Below, piece after piece: positions 5,889-17,711 of a stretch of DNA of 32,806 nucleotides; within the stretch, counting starts at the first letter, position 1, and every line of letters starts with the position of its first letter. A model generated the notes under the pieces. It did not search any database, was not told the DNA's origin, and worked only from the letters and a program-made list of their open reading frames with translations. Location of the stretch: contig CAIPYV010000116.1 of NCBI GenBank assembly GCA_903869365.1, positions 1-32,806 of the forward strand, in the 5' to 3' direction. The position numbers and the translations under genes are program-made. Source of the DNA: an uncultured Chlorobiaceae bacterium. GTDB taxonomy: Bacteria > Bacteroidota > Chlorobiia > Chlorobiales > Chlorobiaceae.

Positions 5889-5993
5889 ATGAATAACAAT
5901 AACGCAAACCCCGAGCATTCCTTACCGGTCAGCTCATCATTACGCACTTGGTCTGAACCAAGCTTGATTTACTTATCAGGTGATAAAACAGAA
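5708..5993 (+). repeat. Duplicated precursor promoter and leader, copy 1
   Basis: About 285 bases similar to 6369-6655. Similarity covers the upstream region and codons 1-35 of the precursor, then stops abruptly at the end of the leader. The downstream core sequences show no clear nucleotide similarity. Confidence 0.75.
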
Positions 5994-6047
5994 AAACTTC
6001 CATTACATATTTTATTTGATAATACAATGGATACACAGGCATCGTAG
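5889..6047 (+). CDS. Putative lasso-type RiPP precursor peptide 1
   Basis: A 52-residue peptide. Residues 1-35 are nearly the same as in the second small gene at 6551: PEHS, PVSSSLRTW and IYLSGDKTE are shared. The leader has W21-x-x-P24-x-x-I27 and T34, close to the Y-x-x-P-x-L ... T pattern by which lasso B1 proteins recognise leaders and B2 proteases cut after T(-2). Cutting after E35 gives a 17-residue core beginning KLPLHILFD, in which D44 is position 9, a usual ring-acceptor position. The last residue is serine, the site phosphorylated by lasso-associated kinases. Lys as residue 1 is unusual (Gly is commonest). It lies upstream of a complete set of lasso-type maturation genes. Confidence 0.65.
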   Translation: MNNNNANPEHSLPVSSSLRTWSEPSLIYLSGDKTEKLPLHILFDNTMDTQAS

Positions 6048-6368: not shown

Positions 6369-6655
6369 CCCACTACAATACTTTTACGTCACACATCACC
6401 ATAGCTTCTCCAGTTATTTTCCGTCGCAGGTAATGAGGTAATGAAGGTATTCCAAAAAAAATGGAGGGCACTCTTTGTTTTATCAATAAAAAGTCGGAAA
6501 TTGAATAGTGATGTTTTTATTTGACTAATAAACCAAAATCTTTTATTCAAATGAACAATAATGACGAAAGTTCTGAGCATTCAACGCCGGTCAGCTCATC
6601 ACTGCGTACGTGGGTTGAACCACGTGTAATTTACTTGTCAGGTGATAAAACTGAA
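6369..6655 (+). repeat. Duplicated precursor promoter and leader, copy 2
   Basis: Second copy of the ~285-base unit at 5708-5993, carrying the same GCACTCTTTGTTTTA element, the AATAAA/TTTATT arms and the leader codons. Offset between copies is 660-662 bases. Confidence 0.75.
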
Positions 6656-6721
6656 CGTAGACATAAATTATTTTTCTTTGTAGAGGAGGCTTCCCCTTTT
6701 GGTCAACTTGGGCCATCATAA
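6551..6721 (+). CDS. Putative lasso-type RiPP precursor peptide 2
   Basis: A 56-residue peptide with the same leader as precursor 1 (W21-x-E-P24-x-x-I27, IYLSGDKTE ending at residue 35) and an unrelated 21-residue tail, RRHKLFFFVEEASPFGQLGPS. It again ends in serine. If cleavage is after E35, the first acidic residues are positions 10 and 11, outside the usual 7-9 ring. If cleavage is one residue later, E45 becomes position 9. The conserved leader with a freely changing core and the fixed C-terminal serine are strong signs of a RiPP precursor pair served by one enzyme set. ATG 6551 is chosen because it aligns with precursor 1; an upstream TTG at 6521 lies in the untranslated repeat. Confidence 0.65.
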   Translation: MNNNDESSEHSTPVSSSLRTWVEPRVIYLSGDKTERRHKLFFFVEEASPFGQLGPS

Positions 6722-7086: not shown

Positions 7087-8286
7087 TTGGAAGCTCAGCA
7101 TTCTTCAACAAGAATCACAGAAGTATCTCCGGAATTTTGTCTCGCGCTTGCTATTGCATGGCTCCCATCAGGTGCTTTTGCTGAACATCAAACACTTCTT
7201 ATTAAGAAGTTGTGTGGAGAAGTAAGAAGCTGGGATGCTGTTCTTGTTTTGGTTGACCGTCATCGCATTCCCGCATTAGCCTATACCAATCTTCTTGGTT
7301 CAGCTGGTATTGTGCCAGAACGAATTATGGCTGCATTAAAGATGCGAAGCCAGAAAGCACGGCATCAGGCACTTGCTCATACCGCAGAAATTTCCAGAGT
7401 ACATAAGATACTAACGCAACAGGGAATAGCCTGTCTTCCGCTAAAAGGCTCGATACTTTCAATTCAGCTCTACGGCGACCCTGGAGTCAGACAGGCTAAT
7501 GACATTGATATACTTATACAGGCCAAGGAATTCGAAAGAGCTGAAAAACTCTTGCTGGCAGAAGGTTACCAACGACAAAGTCCTCCTTTTGCCTTACCTC
7601 CTGACTCTGGTAAATTAATGAATTCAGTGATTCATCACTTCGAATACCATCATCCCCAACGCAAAATAATGCTTGAACTCCATTGGAGAGGTAATTTTTA
7701 TAGGAGTCAGAGCAATAAATATTTCTGGGAATATAATACAAAAACAAATATTGCAGGGCAGGAGTATACTGTTTTAAATGAAGACTTGCAGCTTCTTTAC
7801 CTATGTACCCATGGAGCATATCACAAATATTTTCGCATCAAATGGCTTGGAGATATTGCAAAAATAATTTCAGAAAACCGTATTTCATCATGGGAAAGAG
7901 TAATTGAAATAGCCACAGAGTTACAGGTTCTCAGAAGTCTTGCCTTAAGTGTGTTACTGATCAATCAGCTCTTTCTTTTGCCGATCCCTGACGCTCTTTC
8001 AAAGCTGGCAAAACAAGAAACAGTACAAGATCTTGTTCCAGAAGTAATAGAGGCCATACTGGGTAAAGAAGAAGAAGTCAGCGGTGGAATAAAAAATATT
8101 GTATTTCAAAAACGTCTTAATCCATCAGTATCAATTGCAACTATTCTGAAGACTATGCTTGTGTGTAGGGATGACTTAAAACTTGTGCACTTTTCAGGCC
8201 AGCTTTTCTGGTTATATATACCCCTGCGTCCCGCTTTTTGGATTTGGCGACACTATCTGGCAACAGAAAATTCCAAAAAAAAATGA
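7087..8286 (+). CDS. Lasso-associated nucleotidyltransferase-like protein (PF14907)
   Basis: A 399-residue protein of the NTP_transf_5 family, common in lasso-type clusters. PLKGSIL (118-124) and NDIDIL (D139, D141) are the G-S and D-x-D elements of the nucleotidyltransferase fold. LYLCTHGAYHKYFRIKWLGD is the usual central helix block. In the pseudomycoidin system a protein of this family is linked to adding a sugar to the phosphorylated C-terminal serine of the peptide; the reaction here is not shown. TTG 7087 is the first usable start because the frame has no ATG for a long way. It heads the maturation gene run and is 69 bases from B1. Confidence 0.85.
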   Translation: MEAQHSSTRITEVSPEFCLALAIAWLPSGAFAEHQTLLIKKLCGEVRSWDAVLVLVDRHRIPALAYTNLLGSAGIVPERIMAALKMRSQKARHQALAHTAEISRVHKILTQQGIACLPLKGSILSIQLYGDPGVRQANDIDILIQAKEFERAEKLLLAEGYQRQSPPFALPPDSGKLMNSVIHHFEYHHPQRKIMLELHWRGNFYRSQSNKYFWEYNTKTNIAGQEYTVLNEDLQLLYLCTHGAYHKYFRIKWLGDIAKIISENRISSWERVIEIATELQVLRSLALSVLLINQLFLLPIPDALSKLAKQETVQDLVPEVIEAILGKEEEVSGGIKNIVFQKRLNPSVSIATILKTMLVCRDDLKLVHFSGQLFWLYIPLRPAFWIWRHYLATENSKKK

Positions 8287-8355
8287 CACTCTTGTAATCC
8301 GAAAATACACCATGGCTTCAATCGCTCCATTTCGATTTTTCTTTAAACTTTCTCT

Positions 8356-8658
8356 ATGAAGATGAACATCATGATAACTCCAGCCAGTATTATTTCCAGA
8401 CGAAAGGAGATAATGGCATCAAAGCTAAGTGATACTGAAACGGTGATGCTCAACATTGAAAAAAACAGTTATTACGGTATGGACGAAAGCGCCCGAGAGA
8501 TATGGGAACTCCTTGCAGAACCCTGTTCTGTCAATGGAGTGTGTGATCACCTGCTTACAATATTTGCTGTAGACAAAGAGGTGTGCCAGAAGCAGGTACT
8601 CTCTTTTCTTGAAGAATTACGAGAAGAGGGTTTGATTGATGTCGTTACACCCTCATAA
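8356..8658 (+). CDS. PqqD-like RiPP recognition element (lasso B1)
   Basis: A 100-residue PqqD-family (PF05402) protein, the winged-helix RiPP recognition element that binds the precursor leader and hands it to the peptidase and cyclase. The core pattern is visible: DTETVMLNIEKNSYYGMDES, then AREIWELL, then a helical C-terminus with VLSFLEELREEGLID. The first ~15 residues are extra compared with minimal PqqD proteins, and the internal ATG in MITPAS could be the true start. Its stop overlaps the start of B2, suggesting translational coupling. Confidence 0.9.
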   Translation: MKMNIMITPASIISRRKEIMASKLSDTETVMLNIEKNSYYGMDESAREIWELLAEPCSVNGVCDHLLTIFAVDKEVCQKQVLSFLEELREEGLIDVVTPS

Positions 8659-9094
8659 GCTCTCTAATTTTATGCAACGTCCCTGGCAGGATAAAATACT
8701 GGTGGGTCATGCCTGTATGGTGCTGGGACTGTCAAGGGTTGCTGCTCTGCTCGTTCCAATGCGTCATCTGACAAATTTTTTTGGAACGCACATGTTGGAG
8801 ACTTCCCAGGATGCACCATTGGAACACCTCAGGGAGGCAAAACGTATTGCTTGGGCAATCAACAGCATCAGCCCCTATACACCTTGGAAAAGCAACTGCT
8901 ACGCTCAGGCAATGAGCGCCAAATATTTTTTAAGTCGTAAAGGTATTCCCTGCACTCTTTATCTTGGTGCTGCATTCAAAAAAAATGGAGAAAAAGGTCT
9001 CGAGGCCCATGCTTGGGTACGCTGCGGTACTCTTTACGTAACAGGGGGAAAAGGACACACACAGTTTGGTACCGTCGGGATATTTGGTTCGTAA
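8639..9094 (+). CDS. Transglutaminase-like leader peptidase (lasso B2)
   Basis: A 151-residue protein of the lasso B2 type (Transglut_core3, PF13471), the cysteine protease that removes the leader. C87 in SNCYAQA and H124 in EAHAWV are the catalytic Cys and His. The third member, normally an Asp after the His strand, is not obvious: the segment reads YVTGGKGH. The N-terminal helix with RPWQDKILVGHACMVLGLSR is typical of stand-alone B2 proteins. ATG 8639 is chosen, with GAGGG at 8626-8630; TTG 8636 is one codon upstream. It overlaps the B1 end by 20 bases. Confidence 0.88.
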   Translation: MSLHPHKLSNFMQRPWQDKILVGHACMVLGLSRVAALLVPMRHLTNFFGTHMLETSQDAPLEHLREAKRIAWAINSISPYTPWKSNCYAQAMSAKYFLSRKGIPCTLYLGAAFKKNGEKGLEAHAWVRCGTLYVTGGKGHTQFGTVGIFGS

Positions 9095-9123
9095 AATTCT
9101 ATATAACCAATGATAAAAGTCAC

Positions 9124-10038
9124 TTGTATTATTATTACGCCTATACCTGTCTGATAGAATCAGTATTTCCTTTTCCTGAGTTTGTCCCGGTCAGGGCCGA
9201 AAAGATGAAAGACGCCATACCTGACATCACGATTTGTTACGGCGAAGTTCCAGGAGAGCTCAATAATCCGACAGGATGCGGTGAGCTTTATCAGGCCAGC
9301 CTCAATCAGTTTTTACTCAAGTTAGACCATATAGCAAGCTATCTCGTGCTGAACGGCAATAAAATTATTGTCCAGCCGGCTCCAGATTCAATTGAGTCTG
9401 ATATACGGGTGTTTCTCCTTGGCTCCTGTATCGGTGCACTCCTGCATCAGCGTGGAGTACTTGCGCTCCATGCCAGTGGTATAGGTTCAGAAAGCGGTGC
9501 AGTCCTGTTTACAGGTGTGTCCGGTGCCGGAAAAAGTACCCTTTTAGGGGAACTGCTTAATCGAGGTTGCCGCATGATGGTCGACGATGTCTGCGCTGTC
9601 GTCAATGATAATAAGGGTGTTCCAACCATACTGCCAGCCTACCCCCGTACTCGGCTGTGGGCAGATTCAGCTCAAAAGCTTTCTCAGGATATCACTAAGA
9701 TGCCCCGCACGCGACCCTCCATGGAAAAATATGAACGACAGGCTTCAGAGTTTTTTTGGGATACTCCGGCCCCGCTCCGCCGCATATACCATCTAACCAG
9801 CGATAACAACAATGAGCTTCGTCTCTTGCCAATGAGCCGCTTTGAAATATTTAATACAGTGCGGCACAACACTTACCGTCAGATATTTCTCGATGGTCTG
9901 GAGATGCGCAAACCGCATTTTGATCTTGTTTCCAGTGTTACCAGTACCGTCACCATGCGATGCGTCGTACGCCCCAGCGGATGCTTTCTTCTTAAAGAAC
10001 TTGCTGACCTTGTTATGGAAGATATGGCATGCTCTTGA
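9124..10038 (+). CDS. HPr-kinase-like peptide kinase of the lasso cluster
   Basis: About 304 residues from TTG 9124. The P-loop GVSGAGKST is at 131-139, preceded by LHASGIG and followed by MVDDV, the layout of the HPr serine kinase C-terminal domain. In lasso clusters (paeninodin type) such kinases phosphorylate the C-terminal serine of the precursor; both upstream precursors end in serine. The N-terminus YYYYAYTCLIESVFPFPEF is the usual opening of these kinases. The start is uncertain: no ATG fits, B2 ends only 29 bases upstream, and no good ribosome-binding site is seen. Confidence 0.85.
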   Translation: MYYYYAYTCLIESVFPFPEFVPVRAEKMKDAIPDITICYGEVPGELNNPTGCGELYQASLNQFLLKLDHIASYLVLNGNKIIVQPAPDSIESDIRVFLLGSCIGALLHQRGVLALHASGIGSESGAVLFTGVSGAGKSTLLGELLNRGCRMMVDDVCAVVNDNKGVPTILPAYPRTRLWADSAQKLSQDITKMPRTRPSMEKYERQASEFFWDTPAPLRRIYHLTSDNNNELRLLPMSRFEIFNTVRHNTYRQIFLDGLEMRKPHFDLVSSVTSTVTMRCVVRPSGCFLLKELADLVMEDMACS

Positions 10039-10101
10039 GCGAAACGGGTAAAATTTACTGGATGCGCATACTTCAGTTAATCGTTCTTCAGGAGTGATCA
10101 A

Positions 10102-11970
10102 ATGCAGATGATTTATGGAAGTATCTCCTGGGATGGTCATCATGACGGCGTTAGCGACATGATTGCAGCCCTTAAGAGTTATCCTTGGAAAGACGGAGAT
10201 TTATTCACCGAAACGACTTCGGCCACTATCTGCAGCATGGCTGTAACCAGTTCAGAAAATACGAAGAACAAACCACTTCAACTGCTCAAGGATGGAAATC
10301 TGACCATTGCGGCAGATATACGTATTGATAACCGAAAAAGTTTACTCTCCTCATTTGCTCTTTCTACCGGATTCTCAGAGCCGCTTTCAGACTGCCAACT
10401 CATCCTGATGGCCTATAAAAAATGGGGAATTGACTGTGCAGGTAAACTCCTTGGCGATTTTGCTTTTTCTATCTGGGACACATCAAACAAGCGCCTCTTC
10501 TCAGTCCGCGATCATGCAGGAGTAAGACCATTCTATTATTTTCACCAGCCAGGCAGACAGACTGTTTTTGCAAGCGATCTTTTGGCACTGTTGGCCCACC
10601 CCAACGTACCTCAAAAACTCAACCTTCCTTATGTGAAGGCTTTTTTGCTATCAACAGGAGCCATCTATCAGCATCCAGCTCAAACCTATTATCTGGGAAT
10701 CCAGAAGCTTCCCCCCGCAACAGCTCTAATTGTTGATCGTGATGGCATCAAACTCCATCGTTACTGGTATCCAGGAAAGATCGACGACCGACGCTACCAA
10801 CGTGAATCCGATTATGTTGACGAGTTGCGTCAACTTCTCCATGAAGTCGTCGAGTGCAGAGTAGATGGCATACGTCACGCAGGTGCACACCTGAGCGGCG
10901 GTCTGGATTCATCGAGTCTCGCTGTTCTTGCCCATCGAACCATGCAAAAGAACGGGGGAAACCTTACCGGATACTCCTGGGCTCCCCCTATCAGTATTCA
11001 ACCGCCCTTGCATGGAGACGAGCGTATTCTTGTAGAGGCCGTATGCCAGAGAGAGAGTATACCACTTCGCTACACCACACTGAGAGGGGATCACTTAATA
11101 ACCCATTTCCAGCGGGATATAACGCGACAGCCGACAACCACACTTCAGATGGAGTTATCCGCAAGTGAGGATGCAAACAGTCAAGGCATTACCGCTATGC
11201 TTTCAGGATGGGGAGGTGACGAACTGCTTGTTTTCAATGGTCGTGGCTATTTTTCCGATCTCTTCCGCCGTGGCCGCTGGGTTACCCTCCAGCGGGAACT
11301 GGCCATGCAAAGTGAACTGCATGGTGGGACAGTGTGGAAAGACTGGATTATCCGAGGAATTTTCCCCCTGTTACCGGAACCTATACTGCAACGTCTGAAA
11401 CCCAATCAGCACCCGACCGTTTCCGATCTGCCAGACTTTTTAAAACCCGATTTTCAAAAAGCACTTTCAGCCGTTGACCCACTAAAAAGTAAGCAATTAA
11501 GGGAGCGCCCCGGTGTGCGCCGCATGCAGATTGCCCTCCTGGAAAACGGCCATATCAGTTATAGAATGGAATCATGGGCAGCACACGGCGCAACACTTGG
11601 AATAACCTACCTCTACCCACTATTAGACAACAGGCTGGTAGAATTTGCGCTGAGTATCCCAGACCATCTTTTCTTTAAAAATGGATGGAAACGTTATCTC
11701 TACCGGACAGCCATGGAAGGCATTCTACCGGATAATGTTCGCTGGAACAAGTCAAAATTCGATACAGCAATGATTGCGCAACACCAGCAGATCATAACCT
11801 ATGAGATAAAACGAATGCAAGCAAAACTGCAGGAACGTGCCAACAATCCCTATGTTGATATAAAAAAATTAAAAACAATCATCGATCAGGTCGCAACAGC
11901 AAATGATATCCGTTCACTGCCCAGTAAAGGTCTGATGACGGCCTTTTGGGATTGGGGACGACATTCATAA
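10102..11970 (+). CDS. Asparagine-synthetase-like lasso cyclase
   Basis: A 622-residue protein with an N-terminal glutaminase-like domain and a C-terminal synthetase domain. The N-terminus lacks the Cys2 needed to hydrolyse glutamine (it opens MQMIYGSISWDG), as in lasso cyclases, where the domain is vestigial. The ATP-pyrophosphatase loop LSGGLDSSSLA (S265 onward) is intact. The enzyme would adenylate an Asp or Glu side chain of the core and form the isopeptide bond with the new N-terminus. AGGAG (10090-10094) seven bases before ATG 10102 supports the start. The protein ends AFWDWGRHS, a tail echoed at 13134. This is the only cyclase in the window. Confidence 0.9.
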   Translation: MQMIYGSISWDGHHDGVSDMIAALKSYPWKDGDLFTETTSATICSMAVTSSENTKNKPLQLLKDGNLTIAADIRIDNRKSLLSSFALSTGFSEPLSDCQLILMAYKKWGIDCAGKLLGDFAFSIWDTSNKRLFSVRDHAGVRPFYYFHQPGRQTVFASDLLALLAHPNVPQKLNLPYVKAFLLSTGAIYQHPAQTYYLGIQKLPPATALIVDRDGIKLHRYWYPGKIDDRRYQRESDYVDELRQLLHEVVECRVDGIRHAGAHLSGGLDSSSLAVLAHRTMQKNGGNLTGYSWAPPISIQPPLHGDERILVEAVCQRESIPLRYTTLRGDHLITHFQRDITRQPTTTLQMELSASEDANSQGITAMLSGWGGDELLVFNGRGYFSDLFRRGRWVTLQRELAMQSELHGGTVWKDWIIRGIFPLLPEPILQRLKPNQHPTVSDLPDFLKPDFQKALSAVDPLKSKQLRERPGVRRMQIALLENGHISYRMESWAAHGATLGITYLYPLLDNRLVEFALSIPDHLFFKNGWKRYLYRTAMEGILPDNVRWNKSKFDTAMIAQHQQIITYEIKRMQAKLQERANNPYVDIKKLKTIIDQVATANDIRSLPSKGLMTAFWDWGRHS

Positions 11971-12116
11971 CGTACACTTGTGCAAAAAAAACCTCACCCA
12001 GCTCACTTTTTCTTAGAATTGTCAAAATCCTTAAGCAAGATGTCTCATACCGAATGGTTTCGAAAAAAAATGCGGAATGACTCGTTGTTGTAAAAAATAT
12101 AACAAATCAATTTTCT

Positions 12117-13133
12117 ATGCAAAATGGATTGTTAGTATATACAGAGAAATATAATATTTTTAATATTGGTGATTATATTCAGAGTCTTGCGGCTAAACAA
12201 TTTTTTCATAAAATTGATGTTTTAATTGATAGAGAAAATCTTGATAAATATACAGGTGAGAAAGTAAAAATAATTCTTAATGGCTGGTTTATGCATTCAC
12301 CTGAAAATTGGCCACCATCTCAATTTATAAATCCTTTGTTTGTATCATTTCATATTAATTCAGCTGTAGAAAAAGTGTTAACAAACGAAGTAAATATTGC
12401 TTATTTAAAAAAACATTCTCCCATTGGATGCCGAGATAATAATACAGTTACAATATTAAGAGAAAAGAATGTTGAAGCGTATTTTTCTGGATGTCTAACC
12501 TTGACGTTAGCAGGGAAATATAAAAAAAATAAGCAATCAGATATAATCTATTTTGTTGATCCATATTTTGATTACTATGATGATGCATATCACTCACTTT
12601 GTTATATCAAGCTTCTCTTGACTCATTACAATTTAATTAATAAAATTACATTGAGTTTGTACAGTGTCATAAATATTAAAACATTGAAAAAAGGAGCGGC
12701 ATTTTATAAAAGCTATAAAGATTTATTTTCGGATGAAGTCATAAGAGATGCTGTATATATTTCGCATATATATTCCAACACTTATATCATTGGCCACACT
12801 GCAAAATTTAAATTAGCAGATAGTTTGTTAAAAAAATATGCATCGGCGAAATTTGTTGTCACATCAAGAATTCATTGTGCTTTACCATGTTTAGCAATCG
12901 GGACGCCTGTTTTGTATGTTGAGAATGTTAACCAGAAAAAGAGTAGCTTTTGTAGGCTCAGTGGATTAACTGAACTCTTACATGTAATAAAATATAATAA
13001 AGAAAAATTAAGCTGTGAATTAATAAAAAAAAATAAAATAACACAAAGTTTTGTTTTCAATAATAAATTAACACATACATTGTTTGTCGAAAAGCTCGTT
13101 AAGACATGTGAAATCTTTTCCAGTAATACATAG
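12117..13133 (+). CDS. Polysaccharide pyruvyltransferase-family protein
   Basis: A 338-residue protein resembling the PS_pyruv_trans family (PF04230), which adds pyruvate ketals to sugars or has related glycan roles. Visible family features are NIGDYIQSLAAKQFF at the N-terminus, SPIGCRDNNTV, and KFVVTSRIHCALPCLAIGTP, the conserved S/T-R-x-H segment. The gene is strikingly AT-rich with many AAA/AAT/TTA codons, unlike both flanking RiPP modules, which suggests recent transfer. It starts 147 bases after the cyclase. Its stop touches a relic of a cyclase C-terminus, so its insertion may have removed the cyclase of the second module. Confidence 0.75.
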   Translation: MQNGLLVYTEKYNIFNIGDYIQSLAAKQFFHKIDVLIDRENLDKYTGEKVKIILNGWFMHSPENWPPSQFINPLFVSFHINSAVEKVLTNEVNIAYLKKHSPIGCRDNNTVTILREKNVEAYFSGCLTLTLAGKYKKNKQSDIIYFVDPYFDYYDDAYHSLCYIKLLLTHYNLINKITLSLYSVINIKTLKKGAAFYKSYKDLFSDEVIRDAVYISHIYSNTYIIGHTAKFKLADSLLKKYASAKFVVTSRIHCALPCLAIGTPVLYVENVNQKKSSFCRLSGLTELLHVIKYNKEKLSCELIKKNKITQSFVFNNKLTHTLFVEKLVKTCEIFSSNT

Positions 13134-13151
13134 TGGGGATGGGGACGATAG
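13134..13151 (+). pseudogene. Possible relic of a second lasso cyclase C-terminus
   Basis: Directly after the pyruvyltransferase stop the sequence reads W-G-W-G-R-stop. The intact cyclase ends W-D-W-G-R-H-S, with nearly the same bases. The position just upstream of a B2 gene is where a cyclase could lie. Five codons are little evidence, but identity of composition and place is suggestive. Confidence 0.35.
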
Positions 13152-13183
13152 ATTTTGGTGAGAACCAGTAAAATTGGTCATTC

Positions 13184-13681
13184 ATGGTTTTGATTCACTA
13201 TTTTAGCCGTAGCTGGCGAGGCTACATGAATGCCGCAGAAGCATTAGTGCTTCTTGTCGTGTTTGGCATTGCACAGCGTTGGATTCCAATAAAGAGGTGG
13301 TCCAGGGTATTGGGACGCAATGCCCGTGTACCAAGTCACTGGCAAGGAGAAACGGCGGTCACTCCCATACCAAGGGTGAGGGTCACAGAGGAACGTGTTG
13401 TTGCGATTGCGATAGAGAGAGCCTGCCGGCGCCTCCCATTTATCCCAACATGCCTTGCTCAGGCATCGGCTGGGCAAGTGATGCTTCGCCACCGAGGACG
13501 AAGTGGGGTAGTTGTCATTGGATTGCGGCTTAACCCGCTATCGGCCGGCAAGAGTTGGGAGGCCCATGCCTGGCTCCTTGGGAAATGTGGGGCCATAACA
13601 GGTGGCAAGAATGCACCTGGCTTTACCCCAACAAATATTTTTGAGCTACCCTCTGGTCTATCCGCCGATGAGATTCTTTAG
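13184..13681 (+). CDS. Transglutaminase-like leader peptidase (B2), module 2
   Basis: A 165-residue stand-alone lasso-type B2 protein. C90 in PTCLAQA and H128 in WEAHAWLL are the catalytic pair. As in the first B2, the place of the third catalytic residue reads AITGGKNA without a clear Asp. The N-terminal hydrophobic helix (AAEALVLLVVFGIAQRW) is a family trait. Sequence identity with the first B2 is low, so the modules are not a recent duplication. The ATG at 13184 is the first in the frame. It is followed 48 bases later by the nucleotidyltransferase gene. Confidence 0.85.
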   Translation: MVLIHYFSRSWRGYMNAAEALVLLVVFGIAQRWIPIKRWSRVLGRNARVPSHWQGETAVTPIPRVRVTEERVVAIAIERACRRLPFIPTCLAQASAGQVMLRHRGRSGVVVIGLRLNPLSAGKSWEAHAWLLGKCGAITGGKNAPGFTPTNIFELPSGLSADEIL

Positions 13682-13729
13682 GCGAATCCATCTCACTTTG
13701 CTTTAAAAAAGTTTATTAAAGATCTACCT

Positions 13730-15010
13730 TTGACAACGACAGCAGCCACAAAATTTAGGGATCTTCTCCTTGAGATTCTTCACTGCGATCCCTCACTGCC
13801 AAATTCTGGCCGCTTATTAACATTAACCACTGATGACTGGTATCAAATTACAGCGGAAGCGATTCGTTACCGTATGGCCTTTCAGGTAAAACAGTTTTTT
13901 GATAGCCAATCTCAATTAACTGGTGTCGTTCCGCAAGTTTGCATGGAACGACTTGGTGCTGATGTTCGTAAGATACTGATGAATAATCTCCGCCAGCAGG
14001 CCTATTTACGCGATATGCTTGCTCTCCTCAAAGAGGCAAATATTCCTGTCATACTACTGAAAGGACTGTGGTTGGGGGAATTAGTCTACCGTGACTTGAA
14101 GGCCCGTGATACAGGCGATATAGATCTCTTGCTGCATGCAGTGGATATGCCTCGTTTCACCAAACTTGTCATTGAACATGGCTTTGATGTGCCGTCGACT
14201 ACCACCAATATTTGCGATCTTGCTCCGATCAGCAATGAATTTTTGCTGATTCATCCAACACGGAAGTCCGTTTTTGACATCCATTGGTCGATGACGCTCT
14301 CGCCGGTCGAAAAGCCGGTTGATGAAGAAAAGTTTTGGCAACGCTCAGAAATATACACGATCGCGGGTATGCCCTGCCAAACCTTATGCATTGAAGACCA
14401 TTTGCTCTATCTCTGCTTTCATGCAGCAGTCCATCATCGTTTTGTTTACGTAGGTCCGAGAGCTTTGCTCGATATTGATCGTTTGGTTGCTGAGCCAATT
14501 CGCACGATCGATTGGCAAGATCTGGTTGCACGAACCCGAGAGCTATCTTGGGATCGTTGTGTTTGGCTGATGCTCGACCTGACGCGGCAGCATCTTGGCT
14601 CCCAGGTACCAAAGTCGGTACTTGACGAACTCTATCCTACTGGAGGTGACGGTCAAAGTATTCAAGCTCTTGTAATAGATGCCATATTTCTCGATCAGGG
14701 ACGAAAGGGTAACCTTATAAGAAATATTTTAAGAATAGCTACAGAGCGGTCACTCCTGAAGCGCGTAGCCCTCTCTTTCGAGCGCATCTTCCCGTCATCG
14801 GAAGAAATGGTGACCAAATTCAGGACATCAGTTGACTCACCTGGTTTCCGCTGGCTCTACATGAAACGGCTTGGTTTATTGGCGAAGGATCGGTTTTCGC
14901 AGATTTTCCATTTTATCGTTAGAGATGTTGCGATCTTGGCAGAAAAAGAGAGAGTAAAAGCCATAGATCGATGGATTGAGGGCGATGCAGTCCGTGATCA
15001 GAGTGCTTGA
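13730..15010 (+). CDS. Lasso-associated nucleotidyltransferase-like protein, module 2
   Basis: A 426-residue PF14907 protein. LLKGLWLGELVY (from 109) and the D-x-D of GDIDLLL (D130, D132) mark the nucleotidyltransferase fold. LLYLCFHAAVHHRFVYVGPR is the central helix block. It is diverged from the module 1 paralog but of the same plan. Start TTG 13730 gives MTTTAATKFRD; no upstream ATG is available in frame. Expected to modify the phosphorylated peptide, by analogy with characterised lasso systems; substrate unknown. Confidence 0.82.
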   Translation: MTTTAATKFRDLLLEILHCDPSLPNSGRLLTLTTDDWYQITAEAIRYRMAFQVKQFFDSQSQLTGVVPQVCMERLGADVRKILMNNLRQQAYLRDMLALLKEANIPVILLKGLWLGELVYRDLKARDTGDIDLLLHAVDMPRFTKLVIEHGFDVPSTTTNICDLAPISNEFLLIHPTRKSVFDIHWSMTLSPVEKPVDEEKFWQRSEIYTIAGMPCQTLCIEDHLLYLCFHAAVHHRFVYVGPRALLDIDRLVAEPIRTIDWQDLVARTRELSWDRCVWLMLDLTRQHLGSQVPKSVLDELYPTGGDGQSIQALVIDAIFLDQGRKGNLIRNILRIATERSLLKRVALSFERIFPSSEEMVTKFRTSVDSPGFRWLYMKRLGLLAKDRFSQIFHFIVRDVAILAEKERVKAIDRWIEGDAVRDQSA

Positions 15011-15143
15011 TGCATTGGCCTACACTCAGGGCATTGTGTTCGGAATACGTTGGGAGATAAGTATTTTCGCAACTGAAAGTGAGAACTTCGATTTTATTTT
15101 TTTACTATAACTCAAATAAATTGCTTTTTCTAAGGTTAGCTAT

Positions 15144-16073
15144 ATGAGAAGAAAACTCGCGCTCGCCATTACTGCCGACGGAGAGGTGGATCTCATCCGA
15201 GGAATGATTGATTTGTTACGCCCCAAGCTTGATCGAGTTCTTCTTGTTGAGGGGCGACGTACATTCCATGGTAAACCTCGAGAAGTCCTGGGGGGCGCCT
15301 GGATGGATCTGCTTGATCTCAAACCAGGAGAGTTTCGATCTATCGTTACAGATTTACCAGCCGACAACACGCCTGGCGCCACGATGCGCCAAAGGGAAAT
15401 GTTTCAGCGTAATGCTATTGGTCTTGGTGTGCGGGATATGGAACCAGATGATCTCCTGATTGCCGTCGATGCCGATGAGTTCGTTGATCCAGACTGGTTG
15501 GACTCCAATGCTTATTCAGTGACTGTACCTACCCGCATGCTTATGCTCCCTTGTTATGGGGGTCTTGACCGTCGAGCACCGGACTGGCACTGTTGTCTTA
15601 AACACCTCTCCATGCCCGTTGGCCAATGGCCACCTCATGAGACGGGTTGGCTCTGTCTCGGTGGTGTGGTTGGACCAATACGTGATCTTGCCAATTGTGG
15701 CGTCCAATACTGGCGTTCGTATCCCGTAGCGAAAACAAATGAGGTTGCAGGATGGCACTTGCTACATGTGCTGCCTCCTGAACAGGATCCATCCTGGAAA
15801 CTTCAAAGGCAAGCCCATGACTGGGATCCTACTGTAACTCATCAATATATGGCTCGTTACCTTGCTGCCGGAATTCATCCTTACGGCTGGTGGGGGGCTA
15901 CTCAAATCACTGTACCAAGCCCACTTGAATTTTTTGTTCAACGCCATCCTGACAGTGTGCTTGGCCAACTTCCATCGCTTAACGAACGTTACCAGATGAT
16001 GCAAGCCGCACTTGAACGGTTCCAAAAGTATTCTAATTTGACCCATTCATCCATCAATCCAGAACAACTCTGA
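15144..16073 (+). CDS. GT17-like glycosyltransferase inside RiPP module 2
   Basis: A 309-residue protein resembling the GT17 family (PF04724, founded on beta-1,4-mannosyl-glycoprotein N-acetylglucosaminyltransferase). Family landmarks are VDLIRGMIDLLRPKLDRVLL, VEGRRTFHGKPRE, MRQREMFQRNAI and the metal-binding DADEFVDPDWL. Its stop overlaps the B1 start (TGATG), so it is co-translated with a RiPP recognition protein. This points to a peptide rather than a free glycan as substrate (inference). No counterpart exists in module 1. The exact sugar cannot be predicted. Confidence 0.72.
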   Translation: MRRKLALAITADGEVDLIRGMIDLLRPKLDRVLLVEGRRTFHGKPREVLGGAWMDLLDLKPGEFRSIVTDLPADNTPGATMRQREMFQRNAIGLGVRDMEPDDLLIAVDADEFVDPDWLDSNAYSVTVPTRMLMLPCYGGLDRRAPDWHCCLKHLSMPVGQWPPHETGWLCLGGVVGPIRDLANCGVQYWRSYPVAKTNEVAGWHLLHVLPPEQDPSWKLQRQAHDWDPTVTHQYMARYLAAGIHPYGWWGATQITVPSPLEFFVQRHPDSVLGQLPSLNERYQMMQAALERFQKYSNLTHSSINPEQL

Positions 16074-16336
16074 TGAGCTATCAACGAAGTCCAGATGCAT
16101 TGCATGCAGAAGTTAACGGCTCTCTCATTCTTATGAATGTTGAATCGCTGGCTTATTTTGAGTTTAACGATGTCGCAAAGAGAATTTGGAATCTCTTGTC
16201 AGACGCAGTATGGTCCGAGGAGCAAATTTTATCCGTACTTGTGGATGAGTACGATGTGCAGCCTGAACATTGCCGGATAGCGGTTGCAACGTTCCTGAAG
16301 CAGGCTCTTGAAAAGGGGTTTGTGGTGGAGGCGTAA
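16073..16336 (+). CDS. PqqD-like RiPP recognition element (B1), module 2
   Basis: An 87-residue PqqD-family protein. LHAEVNGSLILMNVESLAYF, then EFNDVAKRIWNLL, then VATFLKQALEKGFVVEA give the usual strand-helix-helix layout of the winged-helix element. It would bind the leader of the small peptide encoded after the kinase. ATG overlaps the GT17 stop by one base; its own stop is one base before the TTG of the kinase. Confidence 0.88.
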   Translation: MSYQRSPDALHAEVNGSLILMNVESLAYFEFNDVAKRIWNLLSDAVWSEEQILSVLVDEYDVQPEHCRIAVATFLKQALEKGFVVEA

Positions 16337-16337
16337 G

Positions 16338-17321
16338 TTGACAGGGAAGGTTTACTGCTATAAATTATTTGACCGCCATATTTTCAGTTTGCATGAACTG
16401 AAGCTGCTCAGTCGGGTTAACCATGATATGGAGCCCGACCATCGGGATGTCATGGTCGAATGGTCATCTGACCCGGTCATGCCTGAGGGGCCATTCTGTG
16501 CCGGTGATGCGAGCTGGGGCATTATTGTTCTGCGTGCAGATGGAGGGGTCTGGGCGGTTTTGCCGCGCACAGGATTTGTTGTTTGGGTACCGAAAAATGG
16601 AACCCGATTAACGGTGCATCCTGACTTAAGCCAGTTGCCTAACCATGATCAGGCGGCACAGCCGTGTCGTGATGTAGCAAACTCCCTTGTGACAGGTTTA
16701 TTGTCGCGCCTGCCTGCGATGTGGGGAGTACTTCCGCTTCACGCAGCAATGCTCAAAGCCCCTGAAGGCTATATTCTGCTTTCCGGGGTGAGTGGCGTCG
16801 GAAAGTCGACTCTTAGTCAGTTCTTGGTTCGTCGTCACGGATGGAGACTCCTTGATGATGACTCTTGCATGGCGTCAGTTATCAATGGCGAGCTTAAGGT
16901 GACACCGATGGGCGGGATGGCTCGTTTGAGAGCTGACGCTGCCAATCGATTGCAATTGTCGGGGCCATTGTTGTCAGGTTACGCCGATGGAAAGGTTATG
17001 GTGCCAATTGAAAGGTCTGCATTGCTTATACCAGAAAAAACTCCTGTCGTTGCGTTGTTCCATCTTTCCCGGAACAAAGAACACTCGGTTAAACATATCT
17101 CTAACTCTTACATCACCCGGCTGGATACTGCAAATGCAGTGATACAGGCATCAACTACTGCGCTCAGTCTTGATCGAGAATCTCAGCAATGGCGTACCAA
17201 TCGGTTCTATGTAGCCGCGCAGTTTGGGAAAACTGCAAATTATTTCGTAACATTCAGTCAAACTACTAAACCAGAGGAGGTAAGTGATGATATCGAAAAA
17301 AGATATGCCGAACGCCATTGA
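16338..17321 (+). CDS. HPr-kinase-like peptide kinase, module 2
   Basis: About 327 residues from TTG 16338, with GGAGG just upstream inside the B1 end. The P-loop GVSGVGKST is at 150-158; LPLHAAML precedes it and LLDDDS follows, the same layout as the module 1 kinase. It would phosphorylate the module's precursor peptide. That peptide ends FPCG rather than serine, so the target would have to be another residue (S50, T20) or a second peptide. Its last 35 bases overlap the precursor gene in another frame. Confidence 0.83.
   Translation: MTGKVYCYKLFDRHIFSLHELKLLSRVNHDMEPDHRDVMVEWSSDPVMPEGPFCAGDASWGIIVLRADGGVWAVLPRTGFVVWVPKNGTRLTVHPDLSQLPNHDQAAQPCRDVANSLVTGLLSRLPAMWGVLPLHAAMLKAPEGYILLSGVSGVGKSTLSQFLVRRHGWRLLDDDSCMASVINGELKVTPMGGMARLRADAANRLQLSGPLLSGYADGKVMVPIERSALLIPEKTPVVALFHLSRNKEHSVKHISNSYITRLDTANAVIQASTTALSLDRESQQWRTNRFYVAAQFGKTANYFVTFSQTTKPEEVSDDIEKRYAERH
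17274..17280 (+). promoter_or_regulatory. Strong ribosome-binding site of precursor 3
   Basis: GAGGAGG ends six bases before ATG 17287. It lies inside the kinase coding region and is one of the best Shine-Dalgarno sequences in the window. It argues that the small overlapping gene is translated strongly, as expected for a precursor. Confidence 0.75.
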
Positions 17322-17451
17322 GAATTCTCAGCCACATGCTGAAACTATTGAAATTGGTAGCCAGAAGCGTGAATGGTTAGACCCGGCCATGGTAGAAGTT
17401 ATGAGGGTCAATGATGCTCGTGATGCTGGTGGTAGTTTTCCATGTGGGTAA
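17287..17451 (+). CDS. Putative RiPP precursor peptide 3 (module 2)
   Basis: A 54-residue peptide. REWLDPAMVEV contains W30-x-x-P33-x-x-V36, the same spacing as W-x-x-P-x-x-I in precursors 1 and 2 and like the lasso leader motif Y-x-x-P-x-L. The tail is VNDARDAGGSFPCG. No Asp or Glu falls at position 7-9 of a core starting with Gly, Ala or Ser, and no T(-2) is present, so a classical lasso is unlikely; this fits the missing cyclase. Evidence for a gene: GAGGAGG ribosome-binding site, coupling to the kinase, leader motif and position at the end of the module. Confidence 0.6.
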   Translation: MISKKDMPNAIENSQPHAETIEIGSQKREWLDPAMVEVMRVNDARDAGGSFPCG

Positions 17452-17593
17452 ATATTTCTCAAGAAGTTATATTCGGCGGTTATGCGCTCTACCACAAGAC
17501 GATAAAAAAGAGTTCAGACCGCCGGATACCATTGAAGCAAGAGAGGATACTCCTGAAAGATACTCCCATTTTGTCCGAATAAGAAGGAAATCT

Positions 17594-17704
17594 ATGAGCG
17601 AGCGTGTGGACGAATCATCCATAGCTCGCCAGACAACAGAGGTTTCTTCTGGATGGGTATGCAAGAGAAAAGTGAAACTTAATCCCATTTCACTTGATTG
17701 GTGA
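17594..17704 (+). CDS. Small hypothetical peptide downstream of module 2
   Basis: A 36-residue frame, starting MSERVDESSIARQTTEV and ending SLDW, preceded by AAGGAA six bases from ATG. It could be another small peptide of the module or chance. The same frame is open further upstream to 17411 and includes FRPPDTIEAREDT, which faintly recalls the leader spacing. No family recognised. Confidence 0.25.
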   Translation: MSERVDESSIARQTTEVSSGWVCKRKVKLNPISLDW

Positions 17705-17711
17705 TTTGCAA

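Follow-up and report, generated by a model that had tools for sequence, protein, structure and literature searches.

A Chlorobium-group lasso peptide module with a decayed cyclase, most likely a damaged member of a known pathway type

The stretch of DNA analysed here (the window; 32,806 nucleotides of contig CAIPYV010000116.1 from an uncultured green sulfur bacterium of the Chlorobiaceae) carries two RiPP modules, the second of which has lasso-type enzymes and no intact cyclase. Is module 2 a pathway that works without ring closure, or is it what is left of one that closed rings? The genome is 2.93 Mb and 99.99% complete. The first-pass annotation described B2, nucleotidyltransferase, GT17-like, B1 and kinase genes, closely packed and followed by a leader-bearing peptide gene, and all of these were confirmed, in this order on the plus strand and spanning 13184-17451. 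A further feature, the decayed remains of a cyclase gene, lies just beyond them. The features are as follows.

13184..13681, plus strand: B2 leader peptidase, transglutaminase-like, lasso type; conserved start probably at 13223 (PF13471, 4.8e-13; NF033537 lasso_biosyn_B2, 55.7 bits against a cut-off of 33)
13730..15010, plus strand: NTP_transf_5 nucleotidyltransferase, PsmN/LppN-like (PF14907, 1.9e-41)
15144..16073, plus strand: GT17-like glycosyltransferase (PF04724, E=0.021, below cut-off; assigned also through homologues)
16073..16336, plus strand: B1, a PqqD-type RiPP recognition element (RRE; PF05402, 1.4e-15)
about 16338..17321, plus strand: HprK-like kinase with a TTG start (HprK_rel_A, 1.2e-8, below cut-off)
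17287..17451, plus strand: precursor peptide, 54 aa, WxxP leader (49-58% identity to relatives' precursors)
17504..17711, minus strand: decayed asparagine-synthetase-like cyclase (tblastn with relatives' cyclases, 7e-6 to 1e-5)

The window thus has both the RRE (B1) and the leader peptidase (B2) of lasso clusters. B2 is 67-74% identical to its counterparts in related genomes and retains the Cys and His of the family. The nucleotidyltransferase shares 68-70% identity with those of the relatives, B1 84-87% and the kinase 74-80%; the kinase keeps an intact Walker motif, GVSGVGKST, and starts with TTG at the position where the relatives have ATG. The GT17-like stop and the B1 start share one base in TGATG, the overlap that had been reported between these genes. 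The module has no transporter gene. No SipW-like (SpI) leader peptidase is present in 13134-17451, where all frames were accounted for, and the peptidase is B2. The five remaining enzymes are predicted to be intact, and no ring closure is expected of the window copy.

A scan of genome contigs with the GT17-like protein recovered the module in five other Chlorobium-group contigs, all from Chlorobium or Chlorobiaceae metagenome-assembled genomes; recurrence of this kind is not chance. Module 2 is found in 5 of 65 genomes of the genus that were searched. On contigs that extend far enough, the genes run B2, nucleotidyltransferase, glycosyltransferase, B1, kinase and one or two precursors. Two contigs (L010, L012) end before the cyclase position, and the cyclase comparison comprises L011, L013 and L014. 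All three carry an intact asparagine-synthetase-like cyclase of 571-603 aa, downstream on the minus strand. In L011 and L013 the precursor is followed by Sulfotransfer_2 proteins (one or two) and by two minus-strand genes, which encode a PS_pyruv_trans protein and an Asn_synthase-domain protein of 571-574 aa. The pyruvyltransferase-like gene is missing from L014, where both sulfotransferase and cyclase are present. The relatives' cyclase matches PF00733 (3.9e-17) and retains SGGLDSS; its match to the lasso cyclase model NF033535 is weak (29 bits, cut-off 525).

The relatives vary in other respects. L013 has a second precursor copy (17056-17214) with a shortened core, upstream of the cyclase and with a fragment of the kinase 3' end before it, which indicates duplication of a kinase-end/precursor unit. 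The kinase frame of L011 (11204-12168) is split into 193 and 131 aa, either by true decay or by misassembly. At 1262-6622 of L011, immediately upstream of module 2, is a SynChlorMet cassette (ScmC, 1.8e-97) with a PqqD protein, a nucleotidyltransferase-like protein, two proteins of the radical SAM kind and a signal peptidase of archaeal/SipW type (TIGR02228, above cut-off).

With the relatives' cyclases as queries, tblastn matched the window at 17711-17509 on the minus strand, the same strand as in the relatives. Cyclase codons 1-50 correspond to 17564-17711, with a stop and a frameshift, and codons about 196-209 to 17504-17546. At the DNA level, 17564-17710 is 82% identical to bases 2-150 of the L014 cyclase, and 17504-17543 is 85% identical to its bases 587-626. 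The blastn score of the remnant is 141 bits, as high as which none of 500 shuffles came (top shuffle, 31 bits). Its lesions are TTG in place of the start ATG, TAA in place of a Tyr codon, a one-base deletion and a gap of ~140 codons; in addition the ATP-binding loop reads SGGLNS instead of SGGLDS (D to N). The earlier statement that the module lacks a cyclase holds for an intact gene; it missed the decayed one, which starts about 50 bases past the 13134-17451 interval then described. A whole-genome search of this 99.99% complete genome revealed no other copy of a module 2-type cyclase or sulfotransferase, and its sole Asn_synthase-domain protein is the module 1 cyclase.

The precursor is damaged as well. 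The relatives' precursors have a common MISKK...QKREW.DP.M.EVM, then 7-9 variable residues and a D-G-x-G-(R-G)-C-x-S core; the cores share [N/D]..G...D-G.G..C.S. The conserved Asp is at position 8 counted from the N/D seven residues earlier, or at 9 from the residue before that, and either position fits a lasso ring as judged from the alignment. Most lasso leaders have a Thr two residues before the core; the relatives' leaders have no clear Thr two residues ahead of the assumed core starts. The window leader keeps the WxxP motif as WLDP (in REWLDPAM), and W.DP is found in all relatives. Its core is shortened to ...NDARDAGGSFPCG: the DGxG(RG)CxS core is missing, the Asp-Gly is gone, the core ends DARDAGGSFPCG and, with the cleavage site assumed, there is no Asp or Glu at core positions 7-9. 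DNA likeness to the relatives stops near 17417 and the peptide ends GGSFPCG. A C-terminal Ser is the usual kinase site. It is absent here, where the window peptide ends in Cys-Gly and those of the relatives in AA, VV, GC and GA; the relatives have a Ser 2-4 residues from the end, and the truncated window core still has a Ser.

Weak likeness to the cyclase reaches down to about 17460, and the precursor stop is at 17451. Between these points there is nothing more of the cyclase, sulfotransferase or pyruvyltransferase-like gene. Since likeness is lost in both the precursor core and the cyclase, substrate and cyclase were damaged together, and the simplest reading would be one deletion with an edge in the precursor core, followed by smaller damage. 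Recombination between two precursor copies, as in L013, was considered as the cause of the deletion and rejected: the window has a single precursor, with the remnant downstream of it, and no long direct repeat is left.

The intact cyclase at the same site in the relatives, together with the remnant, argues for a recently broken lasso cluster. Module 2 very probably descends from a Chlorobium-group lasso cluster hit by a deletion beside the precursor, which took most of the cyclase gene, the sulfotransferase gene and perhaps the pyruvyltransferase-like gene, and shortened the core. It is most likely a broken representative of a pathway type already known, not a pathway working without a cyclase. 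The distinct cyclase-free pathway that the first-pass annotation proposed gives way to the intact cyclases found at that place in L011, L013 and L014 and to the remnant in the window.

In paeninodin biosynthesis the kinase phosphorylates a Ser of the linear precursor, and in pseudomycoidin the nucleotidyltransferase adds hexoses to the Ser phosphate (PMC8498205). B1 presents the WxxP leader (PMC13381572). Like clusters of this type, module 2 has B1, B2, an HprK-like kinase, a nucleotidyltransferase (fused or next to B2) and a WxxP leader; some of them carry sulfotransferases (PMC8498205, PMC13381572), as do the intact relatives. Unlike them, it adds GT17-like and pyruvyltransferase-like genes, its precursors do not end in Ser, it has no transporter, and the window copy has no cyclase. 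Gene content, remnant and intact relatives were observed directly; every chemical step that follows is one that we infer. In the intact relatives B1 would bind the WxxP leader, the kinase would phosphorylate the core Ser, and the nucleotidyltransferase and GT17 enzyme would put sugars on the phosphorylated Ser. B2 would cut off the leader and the cyclase would link residue 1 to Asp8 (or 9). The sulfotransferase would add sulfate, so that GT17 and sulfotransferase together would lengthen the sugar and sulfate it. In the window copy, the leftover five enzymes may still modify or cleave the truncated peptide, or may have module 1 peptides as substrates.

A role of the GT17-like enzyme on the peptide depends on its identity and on its association with the module. 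The window protein scores 14.3 bits against PF04724, under the curated cut-off of 26, and the L011 protein is also below cut-off (0.0013). A Tistrella homologue (28% identity, 2e-12) matches PF04724 at 2.6e-16 and 60.1 bits. The GT17 label thus appears right, weak on the window protein's own match and resting also on homologues. A profile search of the PDB with this protein gave no match, and an AlphaFold model built with five close sequences had a mean pLDDT of 32. The protein is 78-80% identical to those of the five relatives (79-81% in the contig scan), and within the 65 searched genomes of the genus it occurs in exactly the same 5 as the module 2 B1. The neighbourhoods are unlike: SynChlorMet and cobalamin genes in L011, restriction-modification genes in L013 and NRPS genes in L014. 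The gene therefore travels with module 2 rather than a capsule locus. Such co-occurrence is the best evidence for a GT17 enzyme acting on the peptide, and it bears out the earlier assignment of the gene to the peptide module. Plasmid homologues in Azospirillum and Niveispirillum are surrounded by TPR/glycosyltransferase genes and not by genes of RiPP pathways. On Tistrella mobilis pTM1 (7998-13494) the GT17 gene adjoins an HprK-like kinase, two sulfotransferases and a nucleotidyltransferase; B1, B2 and cyclase are absent from the annotation of that interval.

Could the remaining genes nevertheless form a working linear pathway, in which B1, kinase, nucleotidyltransferase and GT17 yield a linear peptide bearing phosphate and sugar, set free by B2? 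The dN/dS of the five genes on the window branch is 0.06-0.29, as among relatives, with no stops, and the Ser of the truncated core remains. Such a product also has a counterpart in the linear polyphosphorylated peptides (LPPs) of Bacillota described by Popov et al. 2026, whose cyclase-free RRE+HprK+NTase sets neighbour lasso clusters within capsule loci (PMC13381572); the annotation had known of no characterised pathway with the exact gene set of module 2. The window, too, has RRE, HprK and nucleotidyltransferase without an intact cyclase (through decay), adjoins a lasso cluster, and has kps-like capsule genes at 21-29 kb. LPPs, however, have a SipW-like peptidase and a YxxP leader where module 2 has B2 and WxxP; the window leader, WLDPAMVEVMRVNDAR, does not match the LPP consensus YxxPxVLxHQxIxFETxxS, and the GT17 gene and recent cyclase remnant are further differences. 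By its B2 peptidase, WxxP leader and apparent descent from a lasso cluster, module 2 is not an LPP. It is distinct also from the SynChlorMet cassette (NCBIfam TIGR04248/TIGR04249), which likewise pairs a PqqD-type protein with an HprK-like kinase in Chlorobi; that separate system, which adjoins module 2 in L011, has radical SAM enzymes and lacks B2 and cyclase. The RRE+HprK+NTase+SpI content of L011 1262-6622 is reminiscent of LPP clusters, apart from its radical SAM enzymes.

The loss that would have created a linear pathway shortened the precursor core as well. Because the remnant can still be recognised, the loss is most likely recent relative to the split from the relatives, and open frames require no new function. 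The remnant's dN/dS against the relatives, 0.29-0.56 over about 60 codons, is somewhat above the 0.18-0.30 among relatives, in line with decay, but has too few sites behind it to date the loss. Open frames neither prove nor exclude present function of the five genes, which may have had some use after the loss. With the ancestral cyclase decayed and the core shortened, the linear phosphorylated, glycosylated product once proposed is improbable as a working pathway. A step from lasso to linear, in which selection keeps B1, B2, kinase, nucleotidyltransferase and GT17 for a linear phosphoglycopeptide and an LPP-like system originates independently in Chlorobi, is likewise given a slim chance; without such selection, any linear product would arise as a by-product of decay.

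Less probable still is a switch of the module 2 enzymes to additional tailoring of the lasso peptides of module 1. In its favour, module 2 is the only one of the two with a GT17 gene, and the module 1 precursors have WxxP leaders and a C-terminal Ser. Module 1, though, owns its B1, B2, kinase and nucleotidyltransferase. The two likely module 1 precursors (plus strand), MNNN...RTWSEPSLIYLSGDKTEKLPLHILFDNTMDTQAS at window 5889-6047 and MNNN...RTWVEPRVIYLSGDKTERRHKLFFFVEEASPFGQLGPS at 6551-6721, lie far upstream of the module 1 enzymes. Between the two modules, at 12117-13133 on the plus strand, is an AT-rich pyruvyltransferase-like gene (PF04230, 3.8e-16); the PF04230 protein of the relatives is a different one, downstream of the precursor. 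Least probable is closure of the module 2 ring in trans by a borrowed module 1 cyclase, intact and with WxxP leaders in both modules: that cyclase is only 21% identical to the lost one, the B1 proteins of the two modules are 27% identical, and the relatives' D-G at ring position 8 is absent from the window core.

A candidate cyclase-free RiPP pathway is thus replaced by explained decay of a lasso cluster. The novelty lies in the intact type: gene content in the relatives suggests a Chlorobium lasso peptide tailored by a kinase, a nucleotidyltransferase, a GT17-like enzyme, a sulfotransferase and a pyruvyltransferase-like enzyme, a set of which no description was found in the literature searched. 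With the broken copy one can ask if tailoring enzymes persist once the cyclase is gone, a question relevant to the origin of LPP-like linear families.
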